The position numbers were made by a program, and so were the translations under genes. A stretch of 48,137 bases of DNA from Pseudomonadota bacterium (GTDB taxonomy: Bacteria > Pseudomonadota > Alphaproteobacteria > Rhodobacterales > Rhodobacteraceae). Where the stretch lies: positions 1 through 48,137 of the forward strand of contig JAKQLM010000471.1 in the NCBI GenBank assembly GCA_029567145.1, written 5' to 3'. Under the pieces are notes generated by a model. That model did no database searches. It had not been told where the DNA came from and saw nothing but the letters and a program-made list of their open reading frames with translations. Below are positions 13,058 to 48,137 of this stretch, piece by piece (positions within the stretch are counted from its first letter, which is position 1; every line of letters begins with the position of its first letter).

Positions 13058-13710
13058 AGGGAGACCCCCGCGAGCACCAGACCTTGTGCAAATGCCAACC
13101 GTCCGTCGATCACAGTGCCCGTGGCAAATCGGCCCTGATCCTGAAGGAACCGGGCCACGAACGTCTCATCTGCCAAGGTGATCTGCACCGCGTCAAAGTT
13201 GAACATCACACGCTCTTCCGGTGCTTGCGCCTTGAACACCGCCTCTTTCGCCGCAAAGGCGCGCCGCACCCAACGCCCGGGATCGTCGCGCGGAAGCTTG
13301 GCCAGTTCATCAGCGGTGCAGACCACGGGCCAGAGGTCCGGCTCGATCCCCTCATCAAGTTCAAGGTCAACGCCAAGCGGTGCAGACAGCCCGGCGGCGG
13401 CAACGGCAAGTCCGTGCGCATGGCTGATCGACCCAAAGACGCCATTCGGCCAGACGGCAGCGCGATCCTTGCCGATCGCAAGGCCGGCAGGCACCCGGCC
13501 CAGCGCAGCGAGACAACGCCGCGCTGCCGTTCGTCCGGCAGCAAACTCGGCCCGGCGCGCAGGGACAGCGCCTGCAATGCCGGCAAGCTCTTCCGGCCAG
13601 AGCGGATGGGGCTGCGAAGGCGAAATCCGTTGCAACGCGACGGCGACGTGCCGTGGGAAAAGTGTCCCCAAAGCCGCTTCGATCGCCGCCAGTCGCAAGG
13701 GCAGCGTCAT
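13054..13710 (-). CDS. 4'-phosphopantetheinyl transferase (Sfp/EntD type)
   Basis: 218 residues, normal for the Sfp/EntD group that converts apo carrier proteins to the holo form by transferring phosphopantetheine from CoA to a Ser. Key motifs are present: SISHAHGLAVAAAG, the Mg-binding GVDLELDE and the second acidic motif RRAFAAKEAVFKAQ (W/F-x-x-KEA-x-x-K). It overlaps both the NRPS gene upstream and the SGNH gene downstream by 4 bp. Its targets are evidently the PCP of the NRPS (Ser in GGHSLLA) and the ACP of the PKS (GGHSLIA). Having a dedicated PPTase suggests a self-contained pathway. Confidence 0.92.
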   Translation of the reverse strand: MTLPLRLAAIEAALGTLFPRHVAVALQRISPSQPHPLWPEELAGIAGAVPARRAEFAAGRTAARRCLAALGRVPAGLAIGKDRAAVWPNGVFGSISHAHGLAVAAAGLSAPLGVDLELDEGIEPDLWPVVCTADELAKLPRDDPGRWVRRAFAAKEAVFKAQAPEERVMFNFDAVQITLADETFVARFLQDQGRFATGTVIDGRLAFAQGLVLAGVSL

Positions 13711-16700
13711 CCCATGGCCCTTTCGCGCGCCTCGCGCATTGCCCGCCTGCGGGCCATCGCATCCAGTCTGGCGTCGGGCGCAGAGTCAGGAACGGCGGAC
13801 ACGGGCGGCTGGGCTACTTTCGCCCCAAGATGCGCCGCAAGGGCGGAGAGGACGGGAAACCGAAAGATGTCGGTGATCGTCAGGCGGTCGGATTTCAGCG
13901 CAACCTTCAGGTCCCGATGCGCCTGAACCGCCAGAAGCGAATGCCCCCCCAGCGCAAAGAAGTTGTCCGACCGGCCAATGTTGGTCACGCCAAGCACCCT
14001 TGCCCAAACCGCCGCGATAGCCTGCTCCACGTCGTCCTCGACCGGCAGCGCGACGCCCCCCGCTGCGGTGGACCGCGCAGCCGGCGACGGCAAGGCGTTG
14101 CGGTCGACCTTGCGGTTGGGGGTAAGCGGGAAGGCTTGCAGAATGACGACATGGGCCGGGACCATCACATCGGGCAGACTTGCCGACAGGCCTTGACGCA
14201 AGCCATCTTCGGTCACCAAGCCATTTGCCGTGACATAGGCGACCAGGCGCACGTCGCCCGGCGTGTCTTCCCGCGCCAGGACCACGCCCTGCCGAACCAC
14301 GGGGATCGCCTCAAGCGCGGCTTCAATCTCTCCCAGTTCGATGCGGTGCCCGCGTATCTTGACCTGAAAATCCGCGCGACCCAGGAAATCGAGACGGCCA
14401 TCGGGACGGCGCCGCACCAGATCGCCGGTGCGGTACATCCGTCCCGTGGCGGCAAACGGGTCCGGGCGGAACCGCTCTGCGGTCAGGTCGGGCCGCTGGA
14501 AATAGCCCTGCGCGACTCCGTCGCCACCAATCCAAAGCTCGCCTTCGGTCCCGTCCGGCAGCGGATTGCCAGCGTCGTCCAGCACGTAAAGCGCCGTATT
14601 CGCGATGGGGGTGCCAATATTCACCACCCCCTCTTGCCCAGTCGTCGCCTCGACCGAGGACCAGATCGTCGTTTCGGTCGGCCCGTACATGTTCAGCACA
14701 GGCCGGGCGATCAATCCCGAAAGATCGGCGGCCAGGCGTCCGGGCAATGCTTCGCCACCGACAAGGATCTGCTTCAGCCGGGCGAGTGCGGTCCGCGCGC
14801 CAGCGTCTTCGATCAGCATCCGCGCCATCGACGGTGTGCACTGAAGATGGGTGACGCCGTGCGTGACGATCAGTCCGGCCAGCGACTCGTCCTTGGCAGT
14901 CCCGCTGTTCGTACGCCGCAGCACCTCGGCCAAGGGCGTCAGGGCCGCCAGAACCTGCGCCGAGGGGATACCATAGTCGATCAGGCAGGCCACTTCATCC
15001 ACGTCGATCATCTTCAGCTCTTCGACGCGGGCAACGCAGTCCTCGACCGTCCCGAACAGGCCGGAGTCTTCGAAATACCGCTGGAACGCGAAGTCGAGAA
15101 TTGCCTCCATCTCTTCGGCCGCCAGTCCGGCAAGGTCGATCTGCATCGGGTTCGAGACACCCTGAGGTTTCTTGAAAGCAGGAAAGGCCCAAGCGTACTG
15201 CTTGATCAGGGCAGCGGCGCTGCGAAGGTAGTCTTTCATCGGCTCGCGGGCAATTTCGCGGGCGACGTCCCGATCTTCGGCGATGAAGGTGTGCAGCATC
15301 AGCGTCACTTTGAACGCAGCCGGGTCGTGCCCGGCCTCCGCCAGCGCCGCGCGGTAGATCTTCACCTTCTCACCAACCTCAGCGACCGATTGGCCCAAAA
15401 GGTGGGTCAGCACGTTCGCACCAAGCCGCCCGGCATCGCGCCACGTCTCTGGGTTGCCAGCCGTCGTAACCCAGACCGACAGATCTTTCGACACCGGGCG
15501 AGGTTGGGTCACCACCGGATGCATCGTTCCGTCCAGACGCGGAAATTCCACCGGTTCGCCGCGCCACAGACGACGAAGCAGGCCAATCGCATCCAGCATC
15601 GCCTGTCTGTTTGCGGGGGGGGTGTTTTCTGGCCGAAGCACAAAGTCGTCCGGCTGCCAGCCCGAGGCGATGGCCAGCGCCGCCCTGCCGTTGGTCAGGT
15701 TGTCGATGACCGCCCATTCCTCGGCGATCCTAGCTGGGTGGTGCAGGGGGGCGACGCAGCTGCCCGCCCGAACCCCGATATTCTTCGTCACGGCGGCCAC
15801 CGCCGCCCCCGTAACCGAGGGGTTGGGGTATGGTCCGCCAAAGGCGTGGAAATGCCGCTCTGGTGTCCAGACCGCGCAAAACCCGTTTGCATCGGCGAAC
15901 TTGGCCCCTTCCAGCAGCAACTCGTACTTGGCGGGTCCGGCCCCGTCGTCATTGCCCCAGTAAAACAGGCTGAACTCCATCTTCCGCGCGCTGAGCGGCT
16001 CGCCACCCGACGGTTGCAGCCGCGCAGCATCGCCTGCCACGACCACAGAAAACCCACGCGACAAGGTCCAGAACAGCTCCAGCACCGAAATGTCGAAAGA
16101 GATCGAGGTGACTGCCAGCCAGACGCCGGGATCGGTGCCGATGACATCGTCCATTCCGGCAAAGAAGTTGATCACGTTGCGGTGGCTGACAACGACGCCT
16201 TTCGGCCTTCCGGTCGAGCCGGAGGTGTAGATCACATAGGCCGCATCGTTCGCGTCAGGTCCCGCGTCAGGCGCAGTCGCGCTGGCCGACTGCACCCGCG
16301 CGTCGGTGTCCACCGCCAGCAGTATCGGCCCCTTGGGCAAATCCGGCATGACGCCGGCCTGCGTGACGATGACGGTGCAACCCGAATCCTCGGCATAGAG
16401 GGACAGACGATCTGCCGGATAGCTTGGGTCCATCGGCACATAGGCGGCTCCGGCAAGCTGGACGCCAAGCGCGCCTGCAATCATGTCGATGCCCCGGTGG
16501 CAGGCCAACCCGACCAACGCACCCCGGTTGATTCCCATTGACCGTAGGGAATTGGCGATCCGGGCTGCCCTTTCCACCAGCCCAGCATAGGTGACTCTGC
16601 TTTCACCTGACACCACCGCAATTGCATCGGGCGTCCTGGCGGCTTGGGCCAGAATTGCTGCGGGCACGGTCAAGGTGTGGTCATAGGCCCGGCTGGTTGT

Positions 16701-18233
16701 GGCCAAAGCGCCAGAGAACCGCTGCCTTTCGCTGTCGAATAGGGCACTGATCCCCGCAAGCGCGACGTCCGGCTTTGCCCGCATCTCTGCTGCGATGCGC
16801 GCCATCCGCTGCGCAAGAGCGTTCGCCTGCCCGGTGGAAAGGCGCGCGGCGTCGTACCACATCATCGGCGACGTTCCGAACGCCAGGGTCACGACTGACC
16901 CGTCAACCGGCGCTTGCCCAACGCTTATCGCAAGGGCCGAAGGGACCAGCGACGACAGGTCAGGCTCACGCAACGCAAGGTCGGCCGCCACTCCGCCCGC
17001 AGCGCGCGCCAGAGCAATTGCCTGTTCCGCCAGCGCCTCTGCGTCTTTGGTCGCGCCCGAGGCGTCAATCCGAACGGGCACCCAAGGCAAGACATAGCCA
17101 GGCGCCGGATCTTTCCCGTCAGAATAGGCCAGGTCACCCCGGCCACGGCCAAGCGCCCGCAGCGCCGCAAGGGCGAGACGCGCCATCGGCTCGTCCGGCA
17201 ACGGCACCGATTGCCAGTCTGCTGCGGCATCCGAAACCGTTCCGAACGTTACGGGATCCGGCGTCAGCAAGCGGCCGCGCAGCCGCGCCTCGCCCTCTGC
17301 CACAGGTGCCAGCGCCGCCGAAATGCATGCCGCTTCTGCAGCGTCAGGCGATTCAAGACGGCCGACCTGCAGCGTCGATGGATCGACCATCGCCCCGTCC
17401 ATTCTGCGCAGGCCCGTCAAGCGAACCGCACCCTCAGCGCACGCGACGGTCAGCGTGTCGTCAGTTGCGCCCAGGACATCTCCTGCGGTGCCAGACCCGG
17501 TCACGGCTTCGGCGCCGGACACGGCAAACACCGTTCCGCTGACGTCGATCTTGGGGACGGCAATCGGATTTCGATAACCACTGTGGTCCAGCGCCCTGAC
17601 CGTCCGCGCCACTTCGGCAGCGGGTTTGCCAAAGTCCAGCCGCCCTGCCGCCCAGGGCCGATCTGCCCGGCGCCACATGCGGCGCGGGCCGACGGGCTGC
17701 GGCTGACGGGGGTGGCCCCCGGCCTCAAGCGCGGACATCACGTCGGCAAAGCTGTCCAACCCTGCCGCAAAGCAACGGGTGTTCAGGGTAAAGGCCGTAT
17801 CGTCGGGTTCGACCGGAAAGTCCCGGCAGGCCAGCACGTCACCGTCGTCGATCCCTGCAGTCAGCAGATGCCACGTCACCGCGTGGGTTGGCTCGCCGTT
17901 CAGGATTGCCCAGACCGGGGCGTTCAGCCCGGCATACCCTGGCAACGGACCATCGTGAAAGTTCACCCCGCCCTGCCCCGCCAGCGCCAGCACCGCGTCG
18001 GGGACCAGCGACAGGTTAGCCACCGAAAGCACCCAGTCCACGTCAGTCCCGGCAAGCCGGTTGGCCAGTCCCGGGCCGGGAGCCACGATGCGCAGCGACC
18101 GTTCGGCTGCCCAAGCCGCCACCTTTGCCTCCCGCGTGACCACCGCCGCAAGACTGTGGCCCCGCTCCAGCCAGCGGTTTCCGCATTCGACGGTCAGACT
18201 GTTGCTGCCGATCAATAGCGCTGTCAGGGGCAT
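13707..18233 (-). CDS. NRPS: formyltransferase - degenerate C - adenylation with inserted luciferase-like monooxygenase - PCP
   Basis: 1508 residues. Residues 1-290 are a formyltransferase domain (NFHDGPLPGYAGLNAPVW with the Asn/His pair, then AGIDDGD). Residues about 340-510 resemble only the C-terminal tail of a condensation domain, with no HHxxxDG. The adenylation domain starts at about 520: A3 YTSGSTGRPKG (about 669), A4 region FDISVLELFW (713). A luciferase-like FMN monooxygenase of the MupA/Atu3671 type is inserted at about 752-1085, followed by A5 NMYGPTETT, A7 YRTGDLV, A8 and A10 NRKVDRNAL. The PCP is at 1400-1470 with Ser about 1432 in GGHSLLA. No thioesterase. The ATG at 18233 is chosen because the longer ORF (from 18518) runs through the upstream gene in another frame. 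It overlaps the PPTase gene by 4 bp. Probably a starter module activating and oxidising an N-formylated amino acid. Confidence 0.9.
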   Translation of the reverse strand: MPLTALLIGSNSLTVECGNRWLERGHSLAAVVTREAKVAAWAAERSLRIVAPGPGLANRLAGTDVDWVLSVANLSLVPDAVLALAGQGGVNFHDGPLPGYAGLNAPVWAILNGEPTHAVTWHLLTAGIDDGDVLACRDFPVEPDDTAFTLNTRCFAAGLDSFADVMSALEAGGHPRQPQPVGPRRMWRRADRPWAAGRLDFGKPAAEVARTVRALDHSGYRNPIAVPKIDVSGTVFAVSGAEAVTGSGTAGDVLGATDDTLTVACAEGAVRLTGLRRMDGAMVDPSTLQVGRLESPDAAEAACISAALAPVAEGEARLRGRLLTPDPVTFGTVSDAAADWQSVPLPDEPMARLALAALRALGRGRGDLAYSDGKDPAPGYVLPWVPVRIDASGATKDAEALAEQAIALARAAGGVAADLALREPDLSSLVPSALAISVGQAPVDGSVVTLAFGTSPMMWYDAARLSTGQANALAQRMARIAAEMRAKPDVALAGISALFDSERQRFSGALATTSRAYDHTLTVPAAILAQAARTPDAIAVVSGESRVTYAGLVERAARIANSLRSMGINRGALVGLACHRGIDMIAGALGVQLAGAAYVPMDPSYPADRLSLYAEDSGCTVIVTQAGVMPDLPKGPILLAVDTDARVQSASATAPDAGPDANDAAYVIYTSGSTGRPKGVVVSHRNVINFFAGMDDVIGTDPGVWLAVTSISFDISVLELFWTLSRGFSVVVAGDAARLQPSGGEPLSARKMEFSLFYWGNDDGAGPAKYELLLEGAKFADANGFCAVWTPERHFHAFGGPYPNPSVTGAAVAAVTKNIGVRAGSCVAPLHHPARIAEEWAVIDNLTNGRAALAIASGWQPDDFVLRPENTPPANRQAMLDAIGLLRRLWRGEPVEFPRLDGTMHPVVTQPRPVSKDLSVWVTTAGNPETWRDAGRLGANVLTHLLGQSVAEVGEKVKIYRAALAEAGHDPAAFKVTLMLHTFIAEDRDVAREIAREPMKDYLRSAAALIKQYAWAFPAFKKPQGVSNPMQIDLAGLAAEEMEAILDFAFQRYFEDSGLFGTVEDCVARVEELKMIDVDEVACLIDYGIPSAQVLAALTPLAEVLRRTNSGTAKDESLAGLIVTHGVTHLQCTPSMARMLIEDAGARTALARLKQILVGGEALPGRLAADLSGLIARPVLNMYGPTETTIWSSVEATTGQEGVVNIGTPIANTALYVLDDAGNPLPDGTEGELWIGGDGVAQGYFQRPDLTAERFRPDPFAATGRMYRTGDLVRRRPDGRLDFLGRADFQVKIRGHRIELGEIEAALEAIPVVRQGVVLAREDTPGDVRLVAYVTANGLVTEDGLRQGLSASLPDVMVPAHVVILQAFPLTPNRKVDRNALPSPAARSTAAGGVALPVEDDVEQAIAAVWARVLGVTNIGRSDNFFALGGHSLLAVQAHRDLKVALKSDRLTITDIFRFPVLSALAAHLGAKVAQPPVSAVPDSAPDARLDAMARRRAMREARERAMG

Positions 18234-18246
18234 GCTCTGGCTCCGT

Positions 18247-18777
18247 TCATTCTGCGGCCAATCTGCGGTCGAAGACCGGCGCCGGCTTGGCCTCGGCCGC
18301 GAGGATAGCATTGCGCATCCGCGCGGACAGGACCCGCACATTGGGCTCCAGCACCATCGAGTCGTGGTCTCCCGGCACCTCGACCACGTCCAGTCTGGGC
18401 GCGAACGGAGTCCAGAGATTGTCAGGGAAGACATATTCCCGCGCCGAACTGACCCAGTTCCCCTTGGTGACTTTCCAGTGGCGGTCCGGCGGTGGCCGGT
18501 ACAGGACAACCCGCCCATCCGCCCAGGGTTTCAGCTGATAGCTGCCGACAGCCTGCAGGAACGCGGCCTCGATCTCGGCATTGTGAAAGGACGGTACCGT
18601 GGGGTCCGGCTCGTGCGCCGCGATGGCCCGCCGGGATCGTTCCCATTCGATCCTTCGCCGCGCCCATTCGGCCAGGAACTTCGGGCCGCCACGACGCAGT
18701 TCTGCCATCTTTATCATGGCCTTGTCTGGGGCGGTCAAGGTCGGCCTTACCGGCATCGGGGTGTCCAGAAGTGCCAT
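18247..18777 (-). pseudogene. C-terminal half of the PKS thioesterase, split off by a frameshift
   Basis: This 176-residue ORF is not an independent gene family. Its sequence continues the thioesterase begun at the end of the PKS: LLDTPMPVRPTL follows naturally after the strand that should come next, and VEVPGDHDSMVLEPNV supplies the catalytic His region of type I thioesterases. The frame is restored if one G is added to the 9-bp G tract (18835-18843) in the PKS. Its ATG overlaps the PKS stop (ATGA), so it could be re-initiated and produced as a separate half-domain. Either a split gene, a phase-variable gene or a sequencing artefact. Confidence 0.8.
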
Positions 18778-36747: not shown

Positions 36748-37544
36748 TGGCCCGCCTGACCGTCAAGGACCTGATGGACCAGCGCGGCAAACACCCGTTC
36801 GCCATGCTGCGGGTCGAGACGCTGGAAGAAGCCGAAGCCGCCGCCCGCGCCGGGGTGGAACTGTTGTCGGTGCCACCCGCGATGATCCTGGATGCCCGGT
36901 TTCGCGAGGCAGCGCCCGACGCCTTCGCCTTTCCGGGCGACAACTTCTACGAAATCGGCGGCACTGACGATTTCCTGCGCTGGGCTTTCCCGCTGTATAG
37001 ACGCGGGGCGGACGGGTTCTACTGCTCGGGCTCGCTGGCCACGGTCCGGGCCATGGCCGATCATGCCCTGCCGGTCTGCGGCCATGTCGGGCTGATCCCG
37101 TCGAAGCGGACCTGGACCGGCGGGTTCAAGGCGGTGGGCAAGACGTTGGACACCGCCAAGCTGGTCTGGTCCCAGGTCCGCGCGCTGGAAGAGGCCGGGG
37201 CCTTTGCCGCCGAAATCGAGGTGGTGCCGCAGGCGATCACCAAGGCGATTGCCGAACGGACCAGCCTGTTCCTGATCTCGATGGGTGCGGGCACGGCGGG
37301 CCATGCGCAGTATCTGTTCAGCGATGACGTGCTGGGCCAGAGCCGGGGCCGCGTTCCGCGCCACGCCAAGGTCTATGCCAACTTCGCCGCCGAGTATGAC
37401 CGACTGCAGGACCTGCGCATCGCCGCGATGGGGCGGTTTGTCAGCGATGTGCACGACGGCGACTACCCCGCCCCGCAACATCTGGTGGACTGCGATCCGG
37501 ACGTGGTCGGGGCGTTCCGCGACTGGCTGGAGCAGGTTGCCTAG
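36747..37544 (+). CDS. PanB-like (ketopantoate hydroxymethyltransferase family) aldolase-type protein
   Basis: 265 residues, starting at the ATG that overlaps the MocE stop. The fold match is PanB/isocitrate-lyase superfamily: GHVGLIPSKRTWTGGFKAVGKT, ALEEAGAFAAEIEVVP (with the conserved Glu equivalent to the PanB catalytic Glu) and LISMGAGTAGHAQYLFSDDVLG. The N-terminal metal-binding DSLG motif of true PanB is not visible: the strand reads ELLSVPPAM. It is therefore unlikely to make pantothenate and may instead act on a keto acid from the catabolic pathway. Its stop overlaps the stop of the convergent gene. Function inferred from context. Confidence 0.75.
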   Translation: MARLTVKDLMDQRGKHPFAMLRVETLEEAEAAARAGVELLSVPPAMILDARFREAAPDAFAFPGDNFYEIGGTDDFLRWAFPLYRRGADGFYCSGSLATVRAMADHALPVCGHVGLIPSKRTWTGGFKAVGKTLDTAKLVWSQVRALEEAGAFAAEIEVVPQAITKAIAERTSLFLISMGAGTAGHAQYLFSDDVLGQSRGRVPRHAKVYANFAAEYDRLQDLRIAAMGRFVSDVHDGDYPAPQHLVDCDPDVVGAFRDWLEQVA

Positions 37545-38431
37545 GGCGCTTCCGGCAACCGCAGGCCCAGCGCTTGTTGCGCTTGCCCGCCGCTGACCGC
37601 CAGGGTCAGTAGCATCGGGCGCAGCCGTCCGGCCCGGCAGGCATCGGCCAGCGCCGGGTTCGCCGCGCCGCCCTGGTCAAGAAGGCGGCGCAGGACGGCG
37701 TCGATTCCCCCCGCCTGACGTGGGTGCAAAAAGGCCGCCAGTGCCAGTGGCGTGCCGTCGGGCCCGACCGACAGGCTAAGGCCCAGCTTCCACGCCGCGT
37801 CCAGCCCCTGCCCCGTCCAGCGCTGCAGCTCGGCCTCCAGCGCCTCGGCCAGATCGCGCAAGGCGGGGACCTGCCGCATGCGCCACAGATCCCCCGGCTG
37901 GCACCGGCGCTCCCAGTAAAGCTCGCGCTGGCCGGTGCTGGCGATGCCGGTCATCATCGGGCGATCCTGCGGCAAAAGGTGCCGCCCCAGATCGGCAAAG
38001 CCGAGGGGCACGCGCACCGCCTGGACATAGGCCTTGCCGGTGTCGCGACCCGCCCCGTCATGGCGCCCCGCGACAAAGACCGGCCAGGCGCCCGGCGCGT
38101 CGCGGCAGACGCGCCGCACCAGCCCCTCGCGCCCCGGTCCCAGGCCGGTGCCGTTGGCGCGCAGCACCGCCAGCCCGCGCCGCAACCGTCGCGGACGCGG
38201 CAGTTCGGGCGCGGCAGGTTCAGCCGTCCAGAACAGCCCCGGACGCCCGGGCCGCCAGACCAGTTCCAGCGGCGTCCCCGAGGCAAGACCAGAGAACGCC
38301 CAGGCCGCCTCGGGCCAGTCGGTGCGGTCCAGCCAGCCCAGCGCCCGGCCCAGGGCCACCCGCCCCCGCGCGACCGCGTCGGGGGCTTCGGCCTCCAGCG
38401 CGTCCAAGAGGCGGGCGAGCGCGGGGGTCAT
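37541..38431 (-). CDS. Unrecognised protein closing the caspase operon
   Basis: 296 residues from an ATG that overlaps the stop of the upstream 971-residue gene by 4 bp. No domain could be recognised. The sequence is Arg/Leu-rich with a mixed alpha/beta pattern; strands such as LELVWRPGRPGLFW, AYVQAVRVPLGF and GLSLSVGPDGTPLALAAFLH look like the core of one domain. No signal peptide or membrane segment. It is the last gene of the minus-strand run, directly convergent with the PanB-like gene. It probably belongs functionally to the caspase/paralog operon. Confidence 0.75.
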   Translation of the reverse strand: MTPALARLLDALEAEAPDAVARGRVALGRALGWLDRTDWPEAAWAFSGLASGTPLELVWRPGRPGLFWTAEPAAPELPRPRRLRRGLAVLRANGTGLGPGREGLVRRVCRDAPGAWPVFVAGRHDGAGRDTGKAYVQAVRVPLGFADLGRHLLPQDRPMMTGIASTGQRELYWERRCQPGDLWRMRQVPALRDLAEALEAELQRWTGQGLDAAWKLGLSLSVGPDGTPLALAAFLHPRQAGGIDAVLRRLLDQGGAANPALADACRAGRLRPMLLTLAVSGGQAQQALGLRLPEAP

Positions 38432-41343
38432 GGCAACAGTTCCACCAGCGTGTCGGTCACGGCAGCCGCCGCCCGTTCCACCCGGCCCCCGGCCTTCATC
38501 AGGTACTTCGCCCGCCAGCCGAACGCCTTGGCTTGCCGGTTCCGGATCGCCATCCGCAGGCGCTGCACGTCCTGGGTCGCCCCGTCGATGTCCAGCCGCT
38601 CCAGCCGGTCGATGCCGTTCGCCGGGTCCTGATAGGTCACGTCCACCAGCACCTTGCGCACCAGGTCCGGGTCCCACATCGGCACCAGGTCGATCTCGAT
38701 GGCATCCGGGAAAGGATCGTCCACCGGCAAGGCATTGGCCGTGCTGGCGGCCGGCGGATCGACGATCGGCGCGGCCCCGCCCTTCAGGTGATGCGTCAGC
38801 ACATAGGACCAGCTTCGCGCATCGGGCGACGAGGTGCGCACTTTCCACGCCTGCGCCTCATCCCCCGGCCGCACGATCAGCACCTTCGTCGCCACCCAAC
38901 CCGAGGGATCCTCGAACCGCATCGCCACTTCCACCCGGTCCACCATCGCCGCATCGATCCGGTTCGGCAGCACCTGTACCTCAATGAACCCCAGATGCGC
39001 GTGCGGGTTCACCATCAGTGTCCGGTCCATCGTCTCGAACGTGGGCACCTCATGGCTCAGCGTCTCGCCCATCCAGCCCGACCCCTGTTCCGCGTCAAAG
39101 TGGAACTGCGCCGAGGCGCGATAGCCAAGATCGCGGTTCTGGTTCAGGAAAGCCTTGAAACTGGCCCGCGTCGCCGTGCCCGCGTCAAAGATCAGGTCGG
39201 CATGCTTCAGCGTCGCCGGATCGGCGGGGCTGCCATAGTCCAGCGCCACCTGCACCGAATTCAACCCGATCCGCGCGTAATCGACCGGGGCATCCACCAC
39301 CACCTCGAACTCGCGGAAGAACGGGTCGTCCAGATCGACCTCGACAAAGTGTTTCGACAGATCGTCGATGTCGCCCAGCATCAGCCCGATGAACCCCTGC
39401 GGTGCATAGCTGCGCTGCACGGCTTCGGTCCGGTTGTAGCGCAGGGTCAGGGTCTTTCTTTCTTCCTTGTGGACGAACTTCAGCTTGAAGGACACCAGCG
39501 CGGGCATCGACGTCGGGACCGGCGGCACGATCGGCGGCACCACGACCGGGGGCGTCGTGCCGGGGGTTCCGGGCGTGCCCGGCGTGCCGGGGCTGACCAC
39601 CGGGGCGGCGCGCTGGATCGTGCCGGTCAGCCGGACCTCGGCCACCACCGGCTGCGGCGGCGGTGGCCGAGAGGCAGGGCCGGTCCAGGTGCACAGGACA
39701 TAGCGGTCCTCCTCGCGGTCGTTGCGGCCTTCGGCCTTGGCCACCGCGTGCCCCTTGGCGATGGACCGCCCGAAGCTGCCCTTGCCCTGCATCGCGGCGC
39801 GGGCGACGTCGATCCGGCGGCGCGACAGGGCCAGGTCGTGGTTCTCGCGCGCTGGGGGCGGCCCCAGCGGATCGGCCCCGGGCGCGAACTGTTCATGGCT
39901 GGCATTGCCTTCAAAGTCGATGATCCGGGGGGATGGCAGGCTGTCAAGCCAGGCCCGGAACAAGTCCGACCCGGTCAGCCCGCCTGCCGGGGCGGGTTCG
40001 CCCTCGGGTCCGCTGGCGGTCTTGAACCGGACATCCGGCGTGCGATTGCTGACGTAAAGCGCGGTCGAGGCGGCAAGCCCCGCCGCAAGCGGTTTGTCCT
40101 TTTCGAAGAACAGCTTGAACTTCCGCGTCGTGGGTTGCGGCGGCACGGTGCCACCTCCGCCACCCGACTGCGGCCAGACCACGCTGATGGTCTGAGGCAC
40201 GTTGGTGCCCGGCACGCTCAGCACGATCTTGCCGTCGCGCAGGGTTGCGGGTTGGCCACCGACCGTCGCCGTCCAGCCGGGCGGGCCATCGACGATGACC
40301 TTTTCTTCGTCGCCGGTCGAGCCTGGTTCCAGCCGCAGGGTCTGGCCTGCGGGCGGGGGTTCGGGGCTGCGTGCCACGATCAGCGTCGCGGGCTGGCGCT
40401 GGCTGGTGCCGGGCTGACCCGGCTGGCCCGGTTGCGCGGGCTGCGTCGGGTTCATCTCGCGCGCCCGCTTCATCACCGCATCCAGGCTTTCGGGCTTGGC
40501 GATCCGGCTTTCGACGTCGGCGGGGCTGATTGACGGCTCGAACCATTTGGACAGCAGGTTGTCCTTGAAGAAATCCAGCGCCCACTGTTCCTTTTCGTTC
40601 TTGTCCGCCTCGCCGGTAAAGTCGATCACTTCGATGTCGATGACCCCGTCGGCGACGAACTTTTCGAACGCCGCGTCGATCCCGGCCTTGACCCAGTAGA
40701 CCTGCGCCTCAAGGCCCGCCGAGAAATGCTGGAACATGTCCTCGTACCTGGCGGTGATCACCACCGACAGCGCGGGCCGCAGGATCGTGTATTTCAGGTC
40801 ATAGACCGCGCCGACCGGGGTCGTGCCCTTGGCAAAGGCCTGCTCCAGGATGATCGCGCCCTCTTGCGTCAGCGACAGCGAAAACGCCGCCGTGTTGTCG
40901 CCCGCAAGCGACGGTTGCGCCGCGCCACGGATCGCCTCGACCGCGCGAAAGGTGCCGGGAGGCAGGTTCGCCGGGGCCGAGGTGCCGCCCGACCCTTCCA
41001 GGTCCAGCGCGATGCAGCGCACCGTGCCTTCGTCAAACGGGATCGCCGACAGCGTGACCGCCCGGGTCACGCCCGGCAGGCGGCGCAACTGGGTCTTGAT
41101 CGACCGTTCGGTATCCGCCGGCAGCTTCAGGTTGACCTCGAAGGTCGCGAACCCGCCGCCCTTGGCCCCCGCCGCCACGGCGGCCGGGCGGAACTTGATC
41201 ATCGACAGGGCTGGCCGACCGTCCAAAGCGCGCTTGGCCAGCGCGACCGGGGCGGGCAGGTACCAGTACTGGTTGGGGTCGGCGTGGTCCGAAAACACTG
41301 TCACGCCATCGACCGTCAGCGTCCGTGCGCCAAGCTGTTGCAT
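38428..41343 (-). CDS. Large modular protein, paralog 3 (with OmpA-like insert), caspase operon
   Basis: 971 residues, no signal peptide. It shares its N-terminal module (about 1-290) with the 750-residue neighbour: VFSDHADPNQYWYLPAPVAL, IPFDEGTVRCIALDLEGS, FSLSLTQEGAIILEQAFAKG, WALDFFKDNLLSKWF. A Pro/Gln/Gly-rich linker (about 295-330) follows. An insert at about 420-540 resembles an OmpA-type domain (IIDFEGNASHEQ ... LALSRRRIDVARAAM). The C-terminal half contains the shared EVDLDDPFFREF signature at about 670 and repeating beta modules such as VDDPFPDAIEIDLVPMWD with YQDPANGIDRLERL. Function unknown. It lies directly downstream of the caspase gene (14 bp gap). Confidence 0.85.
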   Translation of the reverse strand: MQQLGARTLTVDGVTVFSDHADPNQYWYLPAPVALAKRALDGRPALSMIKFRPAAVAAGAKGGGFATFEVNLKLPADTERSIKTQLRRLPGVTRAVTLSAIPFDEGTVRCIALDLEGSGGTSAPANLPPGTFRAVEAIRGAAQPSLAGDNTAAFSLSLTQEGAIILEQAFAKGTTPVGAVYDLKYTILRPALSVVITARYEDMFQHFSAGLEAQVYWVKAGIDAAFEKFVADGVIDIEVIDFTGEADKNEKEQWALDFFKDNLLSKWFEPSISPADVESRIAKPESLDAVMKRAREMNPTQPAQPGQPGQPGTSQRQPATLIVARSPEPPPAGQTLRLEPGSTGDEEKVIVDGPPGWTATVGGQPATLRDGKIVLSVPGTNVPQTISVVWPQSGGGGGTVPPQPTTRKFKLFFEKDKPLAAGLAASTALYVSNRTPDVRFKTASGPEGEPAPAGGLTGSDLFRAWLDSLPSPRIIDFEGNASHEQFAPGADPLGPPPARENHDLALSRRRIDVARAAMQGKGSFGRSIAKGHAVAKAEGRNDREEDRYVLCTWTGPASRPPPPQPVVAEVRLTGTIQRAAPVVSPGTPGTPGTPGTTPPVVVPPIVPPVPTSMPALVSFKLKFVHKEERKTLTLRYNRTEAVQRSYAPQGFIGLMLGDIDDLSKHFVEVDLDDPFFREFEVVVDAPVDYARIGLNSVQVALDYGSPADPATLKHADLIFDAGTATRASFKAFLNQNRDLGYRASAQFHFDAEQGSGWMGETLSHEVPTFETMDRTLMVNPHAHLGFIEVQVLPNRIDAAMVDRVEVAMRFEDPSGWVATKVLIVRPGDEAQAWKVRTSSPDARSWSYVLTHHLKGGAAPIVDPPAASTANALPVDDPFPDAIEIDLVPMWDPDLVRKVLVDVTYQDPANGIDRLERLDIDGATQDVQRLRMAIRNRQAKAFGWRAKYLMKAGGRVERAAAAVTDTLVELLP

Positions 41344-41357
41344 GATCCCGGTCCCCC

Positions 41358-42266
41358 CTAGCGGCTGTCGACAAAGCCGTCGAGAAAGTTCTCGACCATG
41401 CGGTTGTCCTGCCCGATCAGCTGCGGCGACTGGACCAGGCCCAGGCCGGGGTAGACCTGGTTGATGTAGTCCACCACCTTGGCGCTTGCCTCGTCCACCA
41501 GGCTGCGGTGGTCGATCTTGAAGCTGGACTGGTTGACGATGTCGAGAATGGACCTGGTCAGAAACCCGTTCTTCACCGCCGAATTGGGCAACCCTTCCAG
41601 GCTGGATTCGTTCGGCGCACAGCCCGAGATCAGCGTGGTCTTGGCCTGCGGAATCGTCGTGAACCGGGGCGATGGATCAAGGTCGATGTGCCCATTTTCC
41701 AGTCGCAGCCCGCTGACATTGTTGTCGCAGACGATCCGGTCTTGCGGCGACAGCAGCGACCCGCAGGGAATGATTGTGGTGACCGTCTGGGTGATCAGCT
41801 CGACCAGCGTCTGCTCCATCGGCGGCGATTTCGCCTCGGCTTCCAGCGACAGCCCGCCGGAATGGCAACTGTCGAAGACGCAGGTAAAGTTGACGTGGCT
41901 GGGCTGCAGCTGGTCGGCGATCAAAAACAGCTCGTGGTCCGAAATCCAGCGACCCGAGGCGGGGATGATCACCTCGTACGCGCGGCCGATCTGCCGGGGA
42001 TGCGGCAACCGGCTGCCGTGACCCGAGAAGTAAAAGCAGATCACGTCGCCCGGCTGCGATTGCGTCACAGTGTAGCGCAGAGCCTGCAGGATGCGTTCGG
42101 AACTGGCAGCCGTATCAAGGTAGCACAGGATGTTTTCCGGCAGGAAATCGAAGGCGTCGATCAGCAGGTGATAAAAGGCGCGGGCATCGCGGACGCACAT
42201 CGAAAGGCCTGTGATCCTTTGGATGGAGTAGTCGTTGATCCCGACGACAACAGCTCGTTTGGTCAT
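41358..42266 (-). CDS. Caspase-like (peptidase C14/metacaspase) protein
   Basis: 302 residues with a complete caspase-fold p20 region: VVVGINDYS at the N-terminus, the catalytic His in CFYFSGHGSR (H83) and the catalytic Cys in CVFDSCHSGG (C134). No signal peptide, membrane segment or fused adaptor domain. Bacterial enzymes of this group usually cleave after Arg or Lys and are typically found with the proteins they activate or destroy. Here the gene is embedded between two giant paralogs (12 and 14 bp gaps) in one operon, so these are the likely partners or substrates. An AAGGA ribosome-binding site precedes the ATG. Confidence 0.93.
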   Translation of the reverse strand: MTKRAVVVGINDYSIQRITGLSMCVRDARAFYHLLIDAFDFLPENILCYLDTAASSERILQALRYTVTQSQPGDVICFYFSGHGSRLPHPRQIGRAYEVIIPASGRWISDHELFLIADQLQPSHVNFTCVFDSCHSGGLSLEAEAKSPPMEQTLVELITQTVTTIIPCGSLLSPQDRIVCDNNVSGLRLENGHIDLDPSPRFTTIPQAKTTLISGCAPNESSLEGLPNSAVKNGFLTRSILDIVNQSSFKIDHRSLVDEASAKVVDYINQVYPGLGLVQSPQLIGQDNRMVENFLDGFVDSR

Positions 42267-42278
42267 GGGAAAAGTCCT

Positions 42279-44531
42279 TCAGTCTGAAATGGCGATAAGG
42301 GTTTCAAGGGTATCGGTGACAGTGTTCGTGATCATCGCGCCCGAGGTCGGCACGAGGGTGATCTTGACGTCGAACGATTTTTTCGCCCCGGCAGGCAGAC
42401 CGATCCTGACCTCGCGGTCGGTGTCTTCCGGCGTCAGGCGGATGCGTTCCTTGCGGCTGTAATTCAGCCGGGTGTCGGCATAGGCAAAGTCGACAAAGGC
42501 CATCCGCGTCCGCTCCGGGTCCAGGATCGGGATCAGTTGCAGGTCCAGGCTTTCGGGGAAGGGATCGTCGATCTGGATCGTGGTGGCCTCTGTGCTGCCC
42601 GCCGTGCCGGGGCGCCTGGTGCGGTCCTTCATCATGAAGGTTGGAGTGAAGCTGACGGTCCGGTCGGCCGGATCGTCGAACCGCAGCTTCCAGTCGGTCG
42701 CGGGGGCGTCCTTGGTCAGGCTGACCACCCGCTTGCGCGCGCCGTTCTGCAGGGCGACCTCGACCTTGGTGATCTGCCCCCAGTCCACCGGACCGGCGGC
42801 GACCTGGATCACGCCGATACCAAGATGATCATGCGGGTTCAGGACCAATGTGCGATCAGAGCTGCGGAACGGCCCAAGGCTGTAGGACAGCGCCTTGCCG
42901 TCGAACCCCGCGCCGGGGTCAAAGTGATACTGGACCGTGTAGTCGTACTCTTGCACCTCGCCCGAGTTCTGAAAGATCTGCCAGCCCTGTTCGGCGGGCG
43001 CGTCGCCTTCGAACCGCAGGTCCTTGTGCTTGACCCCGCCGGGATCGGTCGGCTTGCCGTAGGACAGCGCAACCTCCACCGCCTTCAGGCCCAGCCTGGA
43101 CATGTCCGACAGCGTGTTCACCCGGATGTCCATCACCCGGAAGAACGGATCGTCCAGGTCGATCTCCATGAAGTGACTTGCCCGGTCCAGGTCCCCGGCC
43201 AGGAGCCCGACAAAACCCTGCGGTGCATAGCTGCGCTGCGTGGCCTCGGCGCGGGCGTAGCTGAACGTCAAGGTCTTGCGTTCGTCCTGGGCGACGCCCC
43301 GGAACCGGAACGAGGCGACGGCCTGTGGCGGGGCATCGCGGTCCGCCCCCGTGGCTGGCGTAGCCGTGGGGGCCGCCCCTGCCGGCAGACCTGGCGCGGG
43401 GGTGGCGCGCGTCACCCCGGACTGCGCCGCGGTGCCCAGCTCGGCCGGGGTGGCGGCCCCTGCCGCTTCGCCCGTGCCGTCGGTCGCTTCCTCGGCCCCG
43501 GCCGGGGGGGCCGCGACCGCGCCGGGCGTCTTGCCGCCATGGCCGGTGCCAACCGTCGCGCTGTCCTCGGGGTCTGCCGCCGGGCCGGGCCGGGCCGGGG
43601 TTTCCCCGTCCGTGGGGCGCGTCGGCGCAGGCGTCGGCGGCGGGCGCAACTGGTTGGCGCGGGTCAGGACGGCATCCAGGCCTTCGGTGGTCGGAAAGCC
43701 GTTGACGACGGTGCCCAGCGTCAGCGAGGGGGTGAAATACTTCTCCAGCAGGTGATCCTTGAAGAAGTTCAACGCCCAGGTTTCCTTTTCCGCCGCATCA
43801 GAGGCGTTGGCAAAGTTCAGGACCTTGATCTTGATCGACCCGTCCTGCACCAGCCGCTCCATCGCCTGGTCGATCCCGGTGCGCAGGAACATCACCTGGG
43901 CCTCGCCGCTGACGGCAAACTGGCGATAGACCCGCTCCATGTTCGCGGTGATCGTCACCTCCAGCGACGGCCGCATGCCCGAGTATTTCAGGTCATAGAT
44001 CACCCCCACGGGGCTGCCGCCCTTGGCAAAGGCCTCGTCCAGGATCGTCGCGCCCTCTTGCGTCAGGGTCAGGGAAAAGCTGGCCCGGTTCGCGGCATCC
44101 AGTGACGGGGTCGTGGCCCCCAGCGCGGTTTCCACCGCCCGGAACCCGCCGGGGGGCAGGGCCGCCCGGGGCGTGCCGCCGCCGCCGCTGTCCAGGTCCA
44201 GCGCGATCACCCGGACCGTGCCTTCGTCGAACGGCACGACCGACAGCCGGGGGCGCCCGCGCGACACACCGGCCAGCTTGGCCAAGATGCGCCGCTCCAG
44301 GCTTGGGTCCAGCAGCATGTCTACCGACAGCATCAGAAAGCCGCCGCCCTTTGCCTCGGTCCCCGCTTGGGCGGCGCGGACCTTCAGGAAGGTGAACTCG
44401 GCCCGACCGTCCGACCTGCGGCGGGACAGCTGGACCGGGCCGGGCAGGAACCAGAACTGCGCGGGGTCGGCGTGGTCGGCAAAGACCTGGATGCCCTCGA
44501 TGGTCCAGGACTGCGAATTGAGCAAAAGCAT
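42279..44531 (-). CDS. Large modular protein, paralog 2, caspase operon
   Basis: 750 residues, no signal peptide. N-terminal module about 1-290 as in the 971-residue protein: VFADHADPAQFWFLPGPVQL, VPFDEGTVRVIALDLDSG, FSLTLTQEGATILDEAFAKG, WALNFFKDHLLEKYF. It is followed by a long Pro/Ala/Gly/Thr-rich, presumably disordered linker (about 295-400) where the sister protein has an OmpA-like insert. The C-terminal half starts with RKTLTFSYARAEATQRSYAPQGF and carries MEIDLDDPFFRVMD at about 460, then beta modules including IQIDDPFPESLDLQLIPILD. GGAGG precedes the ATG. Gap to the caspase gene is 12 bp. Function unknown. Confidence 0.85.
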   Translation of the reverse strand: MLLLNSQSWTIEGIQVFADHADPAQFWFLPGPVQLSRRRSDGRAEFTFLKVRAAQAGTEAKGGGFLMLSVDMLLDPSLERRILAKLAGVSRGRPRLSVVPFDEGTVRVIALDLDSGGGGTPRAALPPGGFRAVETALGATTPSLDAANRASFSLTLTQEGATILDEAFAKGGSPVGVIYDLKYSGMRPSLEVTITANMERVYRQFAVSGEAQVMFLRTGIDQAMERLVQDGSIKIKVLNFANASDAAEKETWALNFFKDHLLEKYFTPSLTLGTVVNGFPTTEGLDAVLTRANQLRPPPTPAPTRPTDGETPARPGPAADPEDSATVGTGHGGKTPGAVAAPPAGAEEATDGTGEAAGAATPAELGTAAQSGVTRATPAPGLPAGAAPTATPATGADRDAPPQAVASFRFRGVAQDERKTLTFSYARAEATQRSYAPQGFVGLLAGDLDRASHFMEIDLDDPFFRVMDIRVNTLSDMSRLGLKAVEVALSYGKPTDPGGVKHKDLRFEGDAPAEQGWQIFQNSGEVQEYDYTVQYHFDPGAGFDGKALSYSLGPFRSSDRTLVLNPHDHLGIGVIQVAAGPVDWGQITKVEVALQNGARKRVVSLTKDAPATDWKLRFDDPADRTVSFTPTFMMKDRTRRPGTAGSTEATTIQIDDPFPESLDLQLIPILDPERTRMAFVDFAYADTRLNYSRKERIRLTPEDTDREVRIGLPAGAKKSFDVKITLVPTSGAMITNTVTDTLETLIAISD

Positions 44532-44543
44532 GGGGGCCTCCTC

Positions 44544-46856
44544 TTACGGTGCCGGAATGGACAGATGTGCCGCGTCCGAGCGCGCCCAGTCGGTGCGCTT
44601 GGTCATGCCGTTCTTGAACAGGAACTTTGCGCGCCAGGTGTAGGCATCGCGGGTCGCGTCCATGTAGTCGAACTCAAAGGTCTTGCGCCCGCCCGGGGCT
44701 TCGAACACCGCCATGTCGGCGATATCGGTGCCGTCCAGATCGTCAGTATAGGACAGTTCCACCTCGACCTTCGCCAGCTTCGGGCGACCGAAATCCGCAG
44801 GCGGCGTCACGGTGATGATCCGGTGGCCCTTCATGTCGGGCCGGACCAGAATGCGCGGGCTTTCGGTAAAGCTTTCCGGCACTTCCAGCACCATGCCGCC
44901 CAGCATCACAGTGGTGACCTTGAAGCTGACCAGCTTTCGCGCCCGGTCCTTGCGGTCGATCACGAACTTCTTCGGGCTGCGGTCGTCAGGGGTGAAGGTC
45001 AGGCTTTCGGCCTGCTCGATCCCGTTGGCCGGATCGCTGTAGGCCAGATCGACAAAGACCTGCTCCACATCCTCCCACCGGGGCACCACCGGCACCACGT
45101 CCACCGCCAGCCGCAGGCTGCCAAAGGGATCGCGGATGTCCACAAGGTCGCCGCTGGCGGGCAGCCAGCCGGTATCCTCGTCCTTGTGGTTCGCTGCCTG
45201 ATGCAGCACGCGGTAGCTGAAGTCGCGCTTGGCCTTGTCCAGCGCGATGAAGGACCAGGCCGGACTGGCGGTGTCCTTCTTCACGACGATGGTGTCGTCG
45301 GTCTTGATGCCGTTGCCCGCATCCTCGTACCGCAGCATCACCTGCGCCTGCGGATACTTGTCCCAAGGGTAGGCGGGCGAGGACACGATGGGGATCGTCA
45401 CCCGGCTGAAGTATTCGGCAGGCTGCACCTCGAACACGTCGCCGGACAGCACCTGCCGGGGCGCGGTCACGACCAGCGGACGCTCGCCCCCGGCGTCCGG
45501 CTTGAACCGCACCGTCAGGTCGGCGGACACCGGACGCGCCATCGCACCGTTTTCCATCACGGACGACCACTTGACCGTCTCGTCCTTGCCCGTTTCTTCC
45601 AGCACCACGGTCCGGACCTGACCGCCATAGTCCAGCACCGCCTGGATCGAGGCCAACTGGTCGCGCGCCATCTCGCCCCGGTTGATCACGCGGACGCGGC
45701 GTTCGGCAAAGAACGGATCGTCCGCGTCCACCTCCAGGATGAACCGTGCCGGGTCGATCCCGTCCGCCAACGCCGTGAACAGGCCCGACACCGTGCCCTG
45801 CGGATAGATCGTTCGCACCACAGCCGAGCGTTCGGAAAATTCAACATCCAGCTTGCGCTTGTCGATGCGGGTGTAGTTGGTCTTCTTGTAGCTGAAGCTG
45901 CCGATGAAGCCGCCGATCCCGCCCGTGGCGCCCATCATCGCCGCCTGCCGCCCGAAATGGCTGATCGTGTCGATCGCCTTGTCCCAGCCGTCGGGGCGTT
46001 CCTTCATCGGCGGCAGGCTTGCCTCGAAAAAGCCGTCGGTGATCATCTCTTGCACGCGGGTGCGGGCGTCTTCGAACCGGGCGGCGACCGACTTGCCGGC
46101 ATCACCCACGTCGGGAACGAAATTGTCGGCCTCCATCGTGATGACCTGGCTTTCGACCAGCTTGTCGACGGCATTGTTGATCTCGGTCGTGGTGAAGAAA
46201 CTCTCGTGGCCAAAGGTTTCGTCCATCGCCGTCTGCACCCGGTCCCAGTCGATCTTCAGCCGGACGCTGAACGCAGGCCGCAGCCCCGCGAAATCCACCG
46301 AATAGACCACGACCATCGGCGTGATCTCGCCCTTAAGCGCCGCCTCCATGATCGCGGTGCCCTCGGCGTCCAGCTCCACGCTGAACGAGGCACCATTGTC
46401 GCCGAAAAGGGCGGGCTTGGCGAAATGCGTGGCCTTCAGGACAAACCGGGGCGCTTCGGCCGGGGTCGTCGGTTGGCCGGGACGCGGCGGCGGGGCGGTC
46501 GACACCGACTCCCGCCCCATGATCAGAAGCCGGACCGAACCATCCAGCGGCTGGATCGGCGCGACCGAGGGCTGGCGCGGCAGGCGGCCCAACCGGCGGA
46601 TTTCGGACGCCAGGTTGTCCACCTCGGTCTCGGACAGGCCCAGATGCACGTCAAAGGTCAGGAACCCGCCCTTGCCCGCCACCAGCGACCGATACTTGAT
46701 CAACTGGATGCGCGGCACCTCTTTGCCCGTCGCCGGATCGGTGGTGGTCCGCAGCCGGGGCTGGGCCAGCGCATAATAGTACTGCAACGGGTTCGCATGG
46801 TCGCGAAACACCGAGATGCCGTTGATGTAGTAATAGGGGGCGTCCAGATACAGCAT
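44544..46856 (-). CDS. Large modular protein, paralog 1, caspase operon
   Basis: 770 residues from the ATG at 46856; the track's TTG start is seven codons earlier and less likely. A more distant member of the same family: ISVFRDHANPLQYYYALAQP, IQPLDGSVRLLIMGRES, ASFSVELDAEGTAIMEAALKG near the N-terminus, EVDADDPFFAERR at about 380 and several beta modules (for example RDPFGSLRLAVDVVPVV and YSDPANGIEQAESLTFTP). It lacks the long disordered linker. No signal peptide or membrane segment. A GC-rich hairpin lies in the spacer upstream. Function unknown. Confidence 0.85.
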   Translation of the reverse strand: MLYLDAPYYYINGISVFRDHANPLQYYYALAQPRLRTTTDPATGKEVPRIQLIKYRSLVAGKGGFLTFDVHLGLSETEVDNLASEIRRLGRLPRQPSVAPIQPLDGSVRLLIMGRESVSTAPPPRPGQPTTPAEAPRFVLKATHFAKPALFGDNGASFSVELDAEGTAIMEAALKGEITPMVVVYSVDFAGLRPAFSVRLKIDWDRVQTAMDETFGHESFFTTTEINNAVDKLVESQVITMEADNFVPDVGDAGKSVAARFEDARTRVQEMITDGFFEASLPPMKERPDGWDKAIDTISHFGRQAAMMGATGGIGGFIGSFSYKKTNYTRIDKRKLDVEFSERSAVVRTIYPQGTVSGLFTALADGIDPARFILEVDADDPFFAERRVRVINRGEMARDQLASIQAVLDYGGQVRTVVLEETGKDETVKWSSVMENGAMARPVSADLTVRFKPDAGGERPLVVTAPRQVLSGDVFEVQPAEYFSRVTIPIVSSPAYPWDKYPQAQVMLRYEDAGNGIKTDDTIVVKKDTASPAWSFIALDKAKRDFSYRVLHQAANHKDEDTGWLPASGDLVDIRDPFGSLRLAVDVVPVVPRWEDVEQVFVDLAYSDPANGIEQAESLTFTPDDRSPKKFVIDRKDRARKLVSFKVTTVMLGGMVLEVPESFTESPRILVRPDMKGHRIITVTPPADFGRPKLAKVEVELSYTDDLDGTDIADMAVFEAPGGRKTFEFDYMDATRDAYTWRAKFLFKNGMTKRTDWARSDAAHLSIPAP

Positions 46857-46888
46857 GACGAAAAGACCTTCATCCAAAAGGGGTTAGA

Positions 46889-46930: not shown

Positions 46931-48137
46931 TCAGGCCGGAAGTTCCAGCACCAGCGCCTCGTCCGAGGACGAGAAGGCAGCCTCTTTCTTCGATCCGTCC
47001 TTCAGAAAGAACTTGGCCGCGACGCTGTATTCCGTCTTGGTCTTGTCCTTGATGTTGACGGTCCAGGGGTCCGGCATCGCGCCATCGACCAGCCGCACGC
47101 TGTCGGTCTCGGCAATGCCGTTCAGCCGGTCCTCGTATTTCAGCGTCAGCATCACCAGCTTCAGCGCGTCCCAGTCCAGAAGGTCGGTCACCAGATCGAC
47201 CTTCAGCTGCAGCACATCCTCGCCCTCCAGCACGGTGTTGCCGGTCACCGTCTTCTCGCCGATCTCCAGCGGAGGCCGCCCGTCGCGATAGACGATCTGG
47301 CCACGATACTTCAGCGTGCCCTGCTTTTCGCTGATCACCGGGAACGACCAGTCGGTGAACCGCTGCCCATCCTGCGAGAAGGCAAAGGACTGGGTCTGGC
47401 GATAGCCGTTGGCGCTGTCGTCGTATTCGAAGTCCAGGAACAGCTGGTCGATCACATTGGCGAAATCGCCCTTGGTGCGGATCGACAGCGTCCGGATCGC
47501 CGAGAACGGATCGTTGACGTAAAGCTGATCGCCCTCGCTGCTCGCTTCCGGCACGTTGATCTCGCGCCCGCCCTTCATGAAGTACTTCAGCTTGTACTTC
47601 CACGGCTGGCTCAGCGGCTTGAAGATGACCTCGCGGATCTGGTGGCTGCGCTTGTCCGGCGTGATGGTGAACTGGCGTTCCAGGTTCACCGTGCCATCCT
47701 TGTAGGTGCAGGTCAGTTGCGCCTGCGCGACCTCTTCAAAGTTGATGTCGCCGACGTCGATATCCACCTTCCAGATGCCCAGGTCGCCCACGTTGATCGA
47801 CACGTCCGACTTCGACGTCATCGGCGGCGATTTGTAGACCTGCGCCTCGCCCTTGTAGTTGACGGTGTAGTGGTAGGTGAACTCGCCCTCGCCACCATCG
47901 TAGAACGCCTCGAACCGATAAAGGTCCTCGGGCTTGCGAAAGGTATAGGTCTTGGCCGAGCCCTGCCCCGTCTTGCCCTTGTAGCTGACCTGCGCGATCA
48001 CGCTGGCGATGGGCAGGTCGGCGAAATCGGCGTTGACCATGAAATTGGCGGCAAAGCTCTTGAAGAACGGGTCGTCCGCATCGACGGTGATCGCATAATC
48101 GTCCCATTTCAGCGCCTTGCCGCCCACGGTGATCGAC
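46931..48137 (-). CDS. Large modular protein, fourth paralog, partial (5' end outside the window)
   Basis: About 400 C-terminal residues are visible and the frame is open to the window edge, so the GTG at 48127 is not the real start. Close to the edge it has the shared ITVDADDPFFKSF motif, followed by repeated beta modules: YKGKTGQGSAKTYTF, VNDPFSAIRTLSI, FEYDDSANGYRQTQSFAF and YEDRLNGIAETDSVRLVDG. These match the modules of the three downstream paralogs (D-P-F then a Y-x-D-x-x-x-G strand). It is the most upstream visible gene of the caspase operon. Function unknown. Confidence 0.8.
   Translation of the reverse strand, partial: SITVGGKALKWDDYAITVDADDPFFKSFAANFMVNADFADLPIASVIAQVSYKGKTGQGSAKTYTFRKPEDLYRFEAFYDGGEGEFTYHYTVNYKGEAQVYKSPPMTSKSDVSINVGDLGIWKVDIDVGDINFEEVAQAQLTCTYKDGTVNLERQFTITPDKRSHQIREVIFKPLSQPWKYKLKYFMKGGREINVPEASSEGDQLYVNDPFSAIRTLSIRTKGDFANVIDQLFLDFEYDDSANGYRQTQSFAFSQDGQRFTDWSFPVISEKQGTLKYRGQIVYRDGRPPLEIGEKTVTGNTVLEGEDVLQLKVDLVTDLLDWDALKLVMLTLKYEDRLNGIAETDSVRLVDGAMPDPWTVNIKDKTKTEYSVAAKFFLKDGSKKEAAFSSSDEALVLELPA

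Follow-up and report, generated by a model that had tools for sequence, protein, structure and literature searches.

Targets encoded next to a caspase-like protease are known from bacterial gasdermin operons (PMC9079055), from the Craspase substrate Csx30 (PMC11106740) and from an antitoxin that an orthocaspase cleaves (PMC7935541). In bacterial gasdermins, cleavage between the two parts of the protein frees the N-terminal part; the site of the Runella gasdermin follows a Leu residue rather than Arg/Lys (PMC9079055). Craspase (TPR-CHAT), an RNA-guided CRISPR complex, cuts its dedicated protein Csx30 into two fragments, and the sites used by Craspases are neither conserved nor basic (between A and S, L and D, or M and K; PMC11106740). 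The orthocaspase MaOC1 has the small antitoxin of an adjacent toxin-antitoxin pair as its substrate, the cleavage sites of which were not determined in that study (PMC7935541).

Here, we analyzed a 48,137-nt stretch of Rhodobacteraceae DNA (the window), in which the gene of a 750-aa protein adjoins a caspase gene. As in bacterial gasdermin operons, a two-part protein is encoded beside a caspase-like protease. However, a gasdermin fold was not found in its N-terminal module, and the protein belongs to a group of several large paralogues carrying a beta arm. The pair can also be likened to Craspase and Csx30, a caspase-like protease with a dedicated protein, but the scan of the operon genes revealed no CRISPR complex. 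With MaOC1, it shares the arrangement of a prokaryotic caspase homologue next to a proposed target gene. The EACC1-associated caspase systems (NF047832; PMC7159879) have a related caspase domain, to which the window caspase scores 38.1 bits, far below the cut-off of 140, and in contrast to these systems no EACC1 gene was identified here.

Organization of the operon

The 750-aa ORF (44531-42279, ATG start) lies on the minus strand, which the original prediction did not specify, and encodes a type III protein. Its stop is separated from the caspase ATG at 42266 by 12 bp, exactly the spacing reported before. The gene order comprises the genes on contig C448, a type IV gene, a 770-aa type V gene, the 750-aa type III gene, the caspase gene, a 971-aa type III gene and the gene of a prenyltransferase homologue. 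Directly upstream of the 750-aa gene lies the type V paralogue (44544..46856, minus strand; 770 aa from its ATG, with the ORF opening at 46877), preceded by the 3' part of the type IV paralogue (46931..48136, minus strand). This last ORF of the window, which reaches position 48136, continues on contig C448 (L021:3-1121), where its 5' part is found. Since the overlapping residues are identical, the two contigs are adjacent. The assembly to which the window belongs has a reported contamination of 8%.

Downstream of the caspase gene, the second type III protein (971 aa; 38428..41343, minus strand) bears an insert of OmpA-like appearance at the position of the linker (39676-40128, minus strand). 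The operon ends with a homologue of DMATS-type (ABBA) prenyltransferases (37541..38431, minus strand), as indicated by a match of the trailing-gene family profile (cluster c1, 29 loci) to PDB entry 6zrx (E value, 5e-10). Such a homologue is unexpected next to large paralogues rich in beta structure. Another neighbouring family (cluster c3, 12 loci; e.g., L020:5100-6014 and L054:13971-14894) has an invariant DxDDT motif, as in class II terpene cyclases, and gave no match in Pfam or PDB.

No family for the type III protein or the other operon paralogues was found in Pfam, NCBIfam, PHROGs or PADLOC. The sole PADLOC match in the operon is a generic caspase model, which hits the caspases only, and the paralogues match none of its system models. 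In addition, a literature search with a single combined query retrieved no published description of the operon.

The caspase homologue has an intact catalytic dyad

The 302-aa caspase homologue (41358..42266, minus strand) matches Pfam Peptidase_C14 (E value, 5.3e-18; 66 bits against a cut-off of 21.4) and metacaspase-4 in PDB (E value, 1.4e-20). Cys134 was rightly proposed as the catalytic residue; it is paired with His83, and this dyad is kept across the full-length caspases aligned. Metacaspases and orthocaspases favour Arg or Lys at the cleavage site. The window caspase keeps two acidic residues, D27 and D132, at the positions that correspond in the alignment to the S1-pocket aspartates reported for TbMCA2 (PMC4357240), making a preference for Arg/Lys plausible.

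The two halves of the type III protein are joined by a linker predicted to be disordered

The type III protein consists of an N-terminal module, a linker and a C-terminal arm. By alignment, the N-terminal module (residues 1 to 293; 43653..44531, minus strand) is common to the type III, IV and V paralogues. The arm (residues 408 to 750; 42279..43310, minus strand) is all-beta according to AlphaFold2 and Foldseek and resembles, in a general way only, a chain of Ig/FN3-like sandwiches. Between them, residues 294 to 407 (43311..43652, minus strand) form a 114-aa stretch of which 72% is Pro, Ala, Gly or Thr (A29, P21, T16, G16).

An AlphaFold2 model of the entire protein, built on 33 homologues, has a mean pLDDT of 75.6. 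Residues 299 to 414 fall below a pLDDT of 50 and are devoid of secondary structure, flanked by ordered parts at 1 to 295 and 415 to 750. Composition and model thus agree with the long disordered linker between two halves that had been noticed from the sequence, and the linker is, by prediction, intrinsically disordered.

Distribution of the family and pairing with caspase genes

When 84,980 species genomes were scanned with an alignment, 76 loci were obtained, while a single protein query against genome contigs matched none. The loci occur in phyla including Pseudomonadota, Actinomycetota, Bacillota, Bacteroidota, Cyanobacteriota, Chloroflexota, Nitrospirota and Acidobacteriota, and one archaeal MAG carries the operon as well. 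No relatives of the paralogues were present in the viral contigs scanned. The family therefore spans many phyla, yet is annotated by none of the libraries used. Across loci, the gene order IV, V, III recurs. The Cohnella faecalis loci L045, L058, L103 and L107 (G456) represent one genome with many broken, repeated copies of operon genes.

A caspase gene lies directly 3' of a type III gene in Paenibacillus, Cohnella, Micropruina, a Nocardioidaceae MAG, Hydrogenophaga, Nitrospira and four Bacteroidota, on the same strand and with a gap of 10 to 48 bp where measured, as in the window. The pair is conserved in five phyla, and the exact order of the window (type III, caspase, type III with insert) is also found in Hydrogenophaga and Nitrospira. 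A caspase gene follows 11 of the 28 insert-less type III genes but none of the 27 insert-bearing ones (Fisher P = 0.0003, a value that ignores relatedness). In six loci (L033, L036, L037, L038, L041 and L048), two caspase genes in tandem follow the type III gene; those that are intact keep His and Cys. In G098, a genome of the same class as the window, the operon is present without the caspase gene and without a counterpart of the 750-aa type III gene. Mapping the caspase label on the tree requires three changes, and the caspase-linked type III proteins may stem from a single origin. A candidate caspase-subunit fusion in L040 was rejected, as the 944-aa caspase ORF sits in another frame.

Linker sequences are conserved among caspase-linked type III proteins

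The linker is neither structured in the model nor absent from orthologues, findings that would have spoken against the original prediction. With or without a caspase gene, all resolved type III proteins but one have a low-complexity linker at the same place, measuring 91 to 198 aa in the insert-less proteins; the exception is L086, with 32 aa. For this reason, a long disordered linker is by itself no sign of a caspase substrate.

Alignability was expressed as a z score against composition-preserving shuffles; the linker statistics exclude L033, in which unread and frame-disturbed sequence spoils the linker. Across phyla, pairs of caspase-linked linkers score above their shuffles, with a z of 13 between Paenibacillus and Micropruina (L032-L041) and of 9 between Paenibacillus and Hydrogenophaga (L032-L034). 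By the same measure, caspase-linked linkers compared with caspase-free ones give a mean z of 0.4. The window linker reaches a z of 3.6 to 5.9 with six of its nine caspase-linked relatives and 3.1 with a seventh, and stays below 2 with 15 of 16 caspase-free linkers. The remaining two relatives, both Bacteroidota, do no better than 1.7, which is a counterpoint to a common engagement of the linker by the caspase.

Caspase-linked linkers have in common an initial LRPPxTPxPPRPD and PxxG[TS]G-type motifs, in one or two copies. In the window, the alignment of the ten caspase-linked linkers places LRPPxTPxPxRP, with its Arg residues followed by Pro, at residues 295 to 306 (43614..43649, minus strand). 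Alignment and motif counts mark two GTG motifs, TVGTGHG at residues 326 to 332 (43536..43556, minus strand) and TDGTGEA at residues 350 to 356 (43464..43484, minus strand). RPD is present in 6 of 10 caspase-linked linkers and 0 of 43 others, and PxxG[TS]G in 6 of 10 and 2 of 43, respectively; because the motifs were picked from the same alignment, these counts are descriptive and constitute no proof. Since the operon is rare, the search for held-out genomes yielded only two near relatives, which keep RPD and PTEG[TS]G but are too close to be independent. Within this set of alignments, the linker sequence is conserved only in the caspase-linked homologues.

The alignability of caspase-linked linkers, together with motifs that are nearly absent elsewhere, supports an engagement of the linker by the caspase. 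The conserved gene pair, the restriction of caspase genes to insert-less type III neighbours, the kept dyad and the precedents named above point the same way. Our main reading, to which we assign a probability of roughly 0.45, is an engagement of the hinge of the neighbour-encoded protein by the caspase through the linker motifs, with either processing or docking at this place. The 750-aa protein would be a structural type III subunit of an undescribed assembly of multiple paralogues, with the linker as a disordered hinge joining the conserved N-terminal module to the all-beta arm. The short motifs kept in the caspase-followed subfamily would most likely reflect caspase docking, and action of the activated caspase at the hinge would part the N-terminal module from the arm. 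If the linker is cut, the site could well be other than an isolated Arg or Lys. Should the caspase work in this manner, the locus would extend the pairs of caspase and substrate beyond gasdermins and CRISPR, and would give orthocaspases, few targets of which are known, a dedicated partner open to testing.

It is also conceivable, although somewhat unlikely in our view, that the linker is a passive flexible spacer, in which case the co-encoded caspase would be a component or an effector with its target elsewhere. The near-universal presence of the linker regardless of caspase genes fits this explanation, as does a domain inserted at the same place within the linker in 27 of 55 type III proteins. 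This insert has an OmpA-like motif pattern, with YfiB and YiaD appearing only at sub-threshold E values of 0.12 to 0.29, and the insert of the 971-aa paralogue has no match in Pfam. Moreover, other operons carry other, unrelated enzymes, as illustrated by L025 (Paracoccus plasmid pNSM5a, 2999-28851), where the paralogues adjoin trypsin-like, EAD1, ATP-binding, phospholipase D-like and tyrosinase genes. On the other hand, a passive spacer would not be expected to align across phyla in caspase-linked members only, unless these share recent ancestry, which could by itself keep the linkers alignable.

Several insert-bearing type III linkers (L020:6928-10029, L059, L088 and L091) consist of short tandem repeats such as GGDTKA, GGT and GGSS. 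The length of linkers of this type varies between relatives.

Basic residues of the linker are depleted, and only those before Pro are conserved

The original prediction was that the caspase cuts the linker after isolated Arg or Lys residues, which in the window could be R398-D, R375-A or K334-T, thereby freeing the N-terminal module. The Arg/Lys preference of metacaspases and orthocaspases, the aligned D27 and D132 and the accessibility expected of a disordered linker agree with this idea, and 9 of 10 caspase-linked linker cores contain one or more basic residues that are not followed by Pro. Six basic residues are indeed present in the window linker, but R296, R305 and R314 precede Pro, leaving K334, R375 and R398 in another context, and the linker is poor in such residues (6/114, versus 72/636 in the rest of the protein; Fisher P = 0.065). 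The depletion is clearer over the ten caspase-linked homologues, at 46/1,106 (4.2%) in linkers versus 712/6,196 (11.5%) elsewhere.

Cleavage before Pro is generally disfavoured for proteases. Of the 46 basic residues in caspase-linked linkers, 23 are followed by Pro, compared to a Pro content of 22%. The Arg positions that are conserved are exclusively Arg-Pro ones, and the alignment of the ten linkers contains no conserved basic site outside them. In L038, which has two caspases, the linker core has basic residues only in front of Pro, and two of the three non-Pro basic sites in the second half of the linker are lost between the two Nitrospira. In addition, the density of basic residues does not differ between caspase-linked linkers and caspase-free ones (P = 0.33), the latter being equally long.

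Taken together, depletion, Pro context, lack of conservation outside Arg-Pro and equal density speak against a selective pressure to keep exposed Arg/Lys cleavage sites, and we regard cleavage at these residues as unlikely. The linker could nevertheless be cut elsewhere, as some bacterial caspase-like proteases act on non-basic, non-conserved sites, including the Craspases and the protease of the Runella gasdermin mentioned above.

That the type III protein is a gasdermin-like pore-former held inactive by its beta arm is extremely improbable: the caspase gene pair and two-part layout do resemble bacterial gasdermin operons (PMC9079055), but a fold search with the N-terminal module as modelled by AlphaFold2 (pLDDT 83) returned no PDB match at an E value of ≤0.001 and no gasdermin in the top 50. 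Moreover, the module is present in three or more paralogues of each operon, and most operons have no caspase.

Possible nature of the operon

At the level of the whole operon, a broader scenario can be sketched, which we put forward as speculative and somewhat unlikely in its entirety. The operon might encode, along with a DMATS-type prenyltransferase homologue, five to seven large paralogues that form an undescribed assembly, each made of an N-terminal module with no known fold and Ig-like arms, and one lineage might have gained a caspase that cuts or docks on one hinge, thereby switching the assembly. Elsewhere in the window, a large ORF (13707-18518, minus strand) combines formyltransferase, AMP-binding, luciferase-like monooxygenase and carrier domains.
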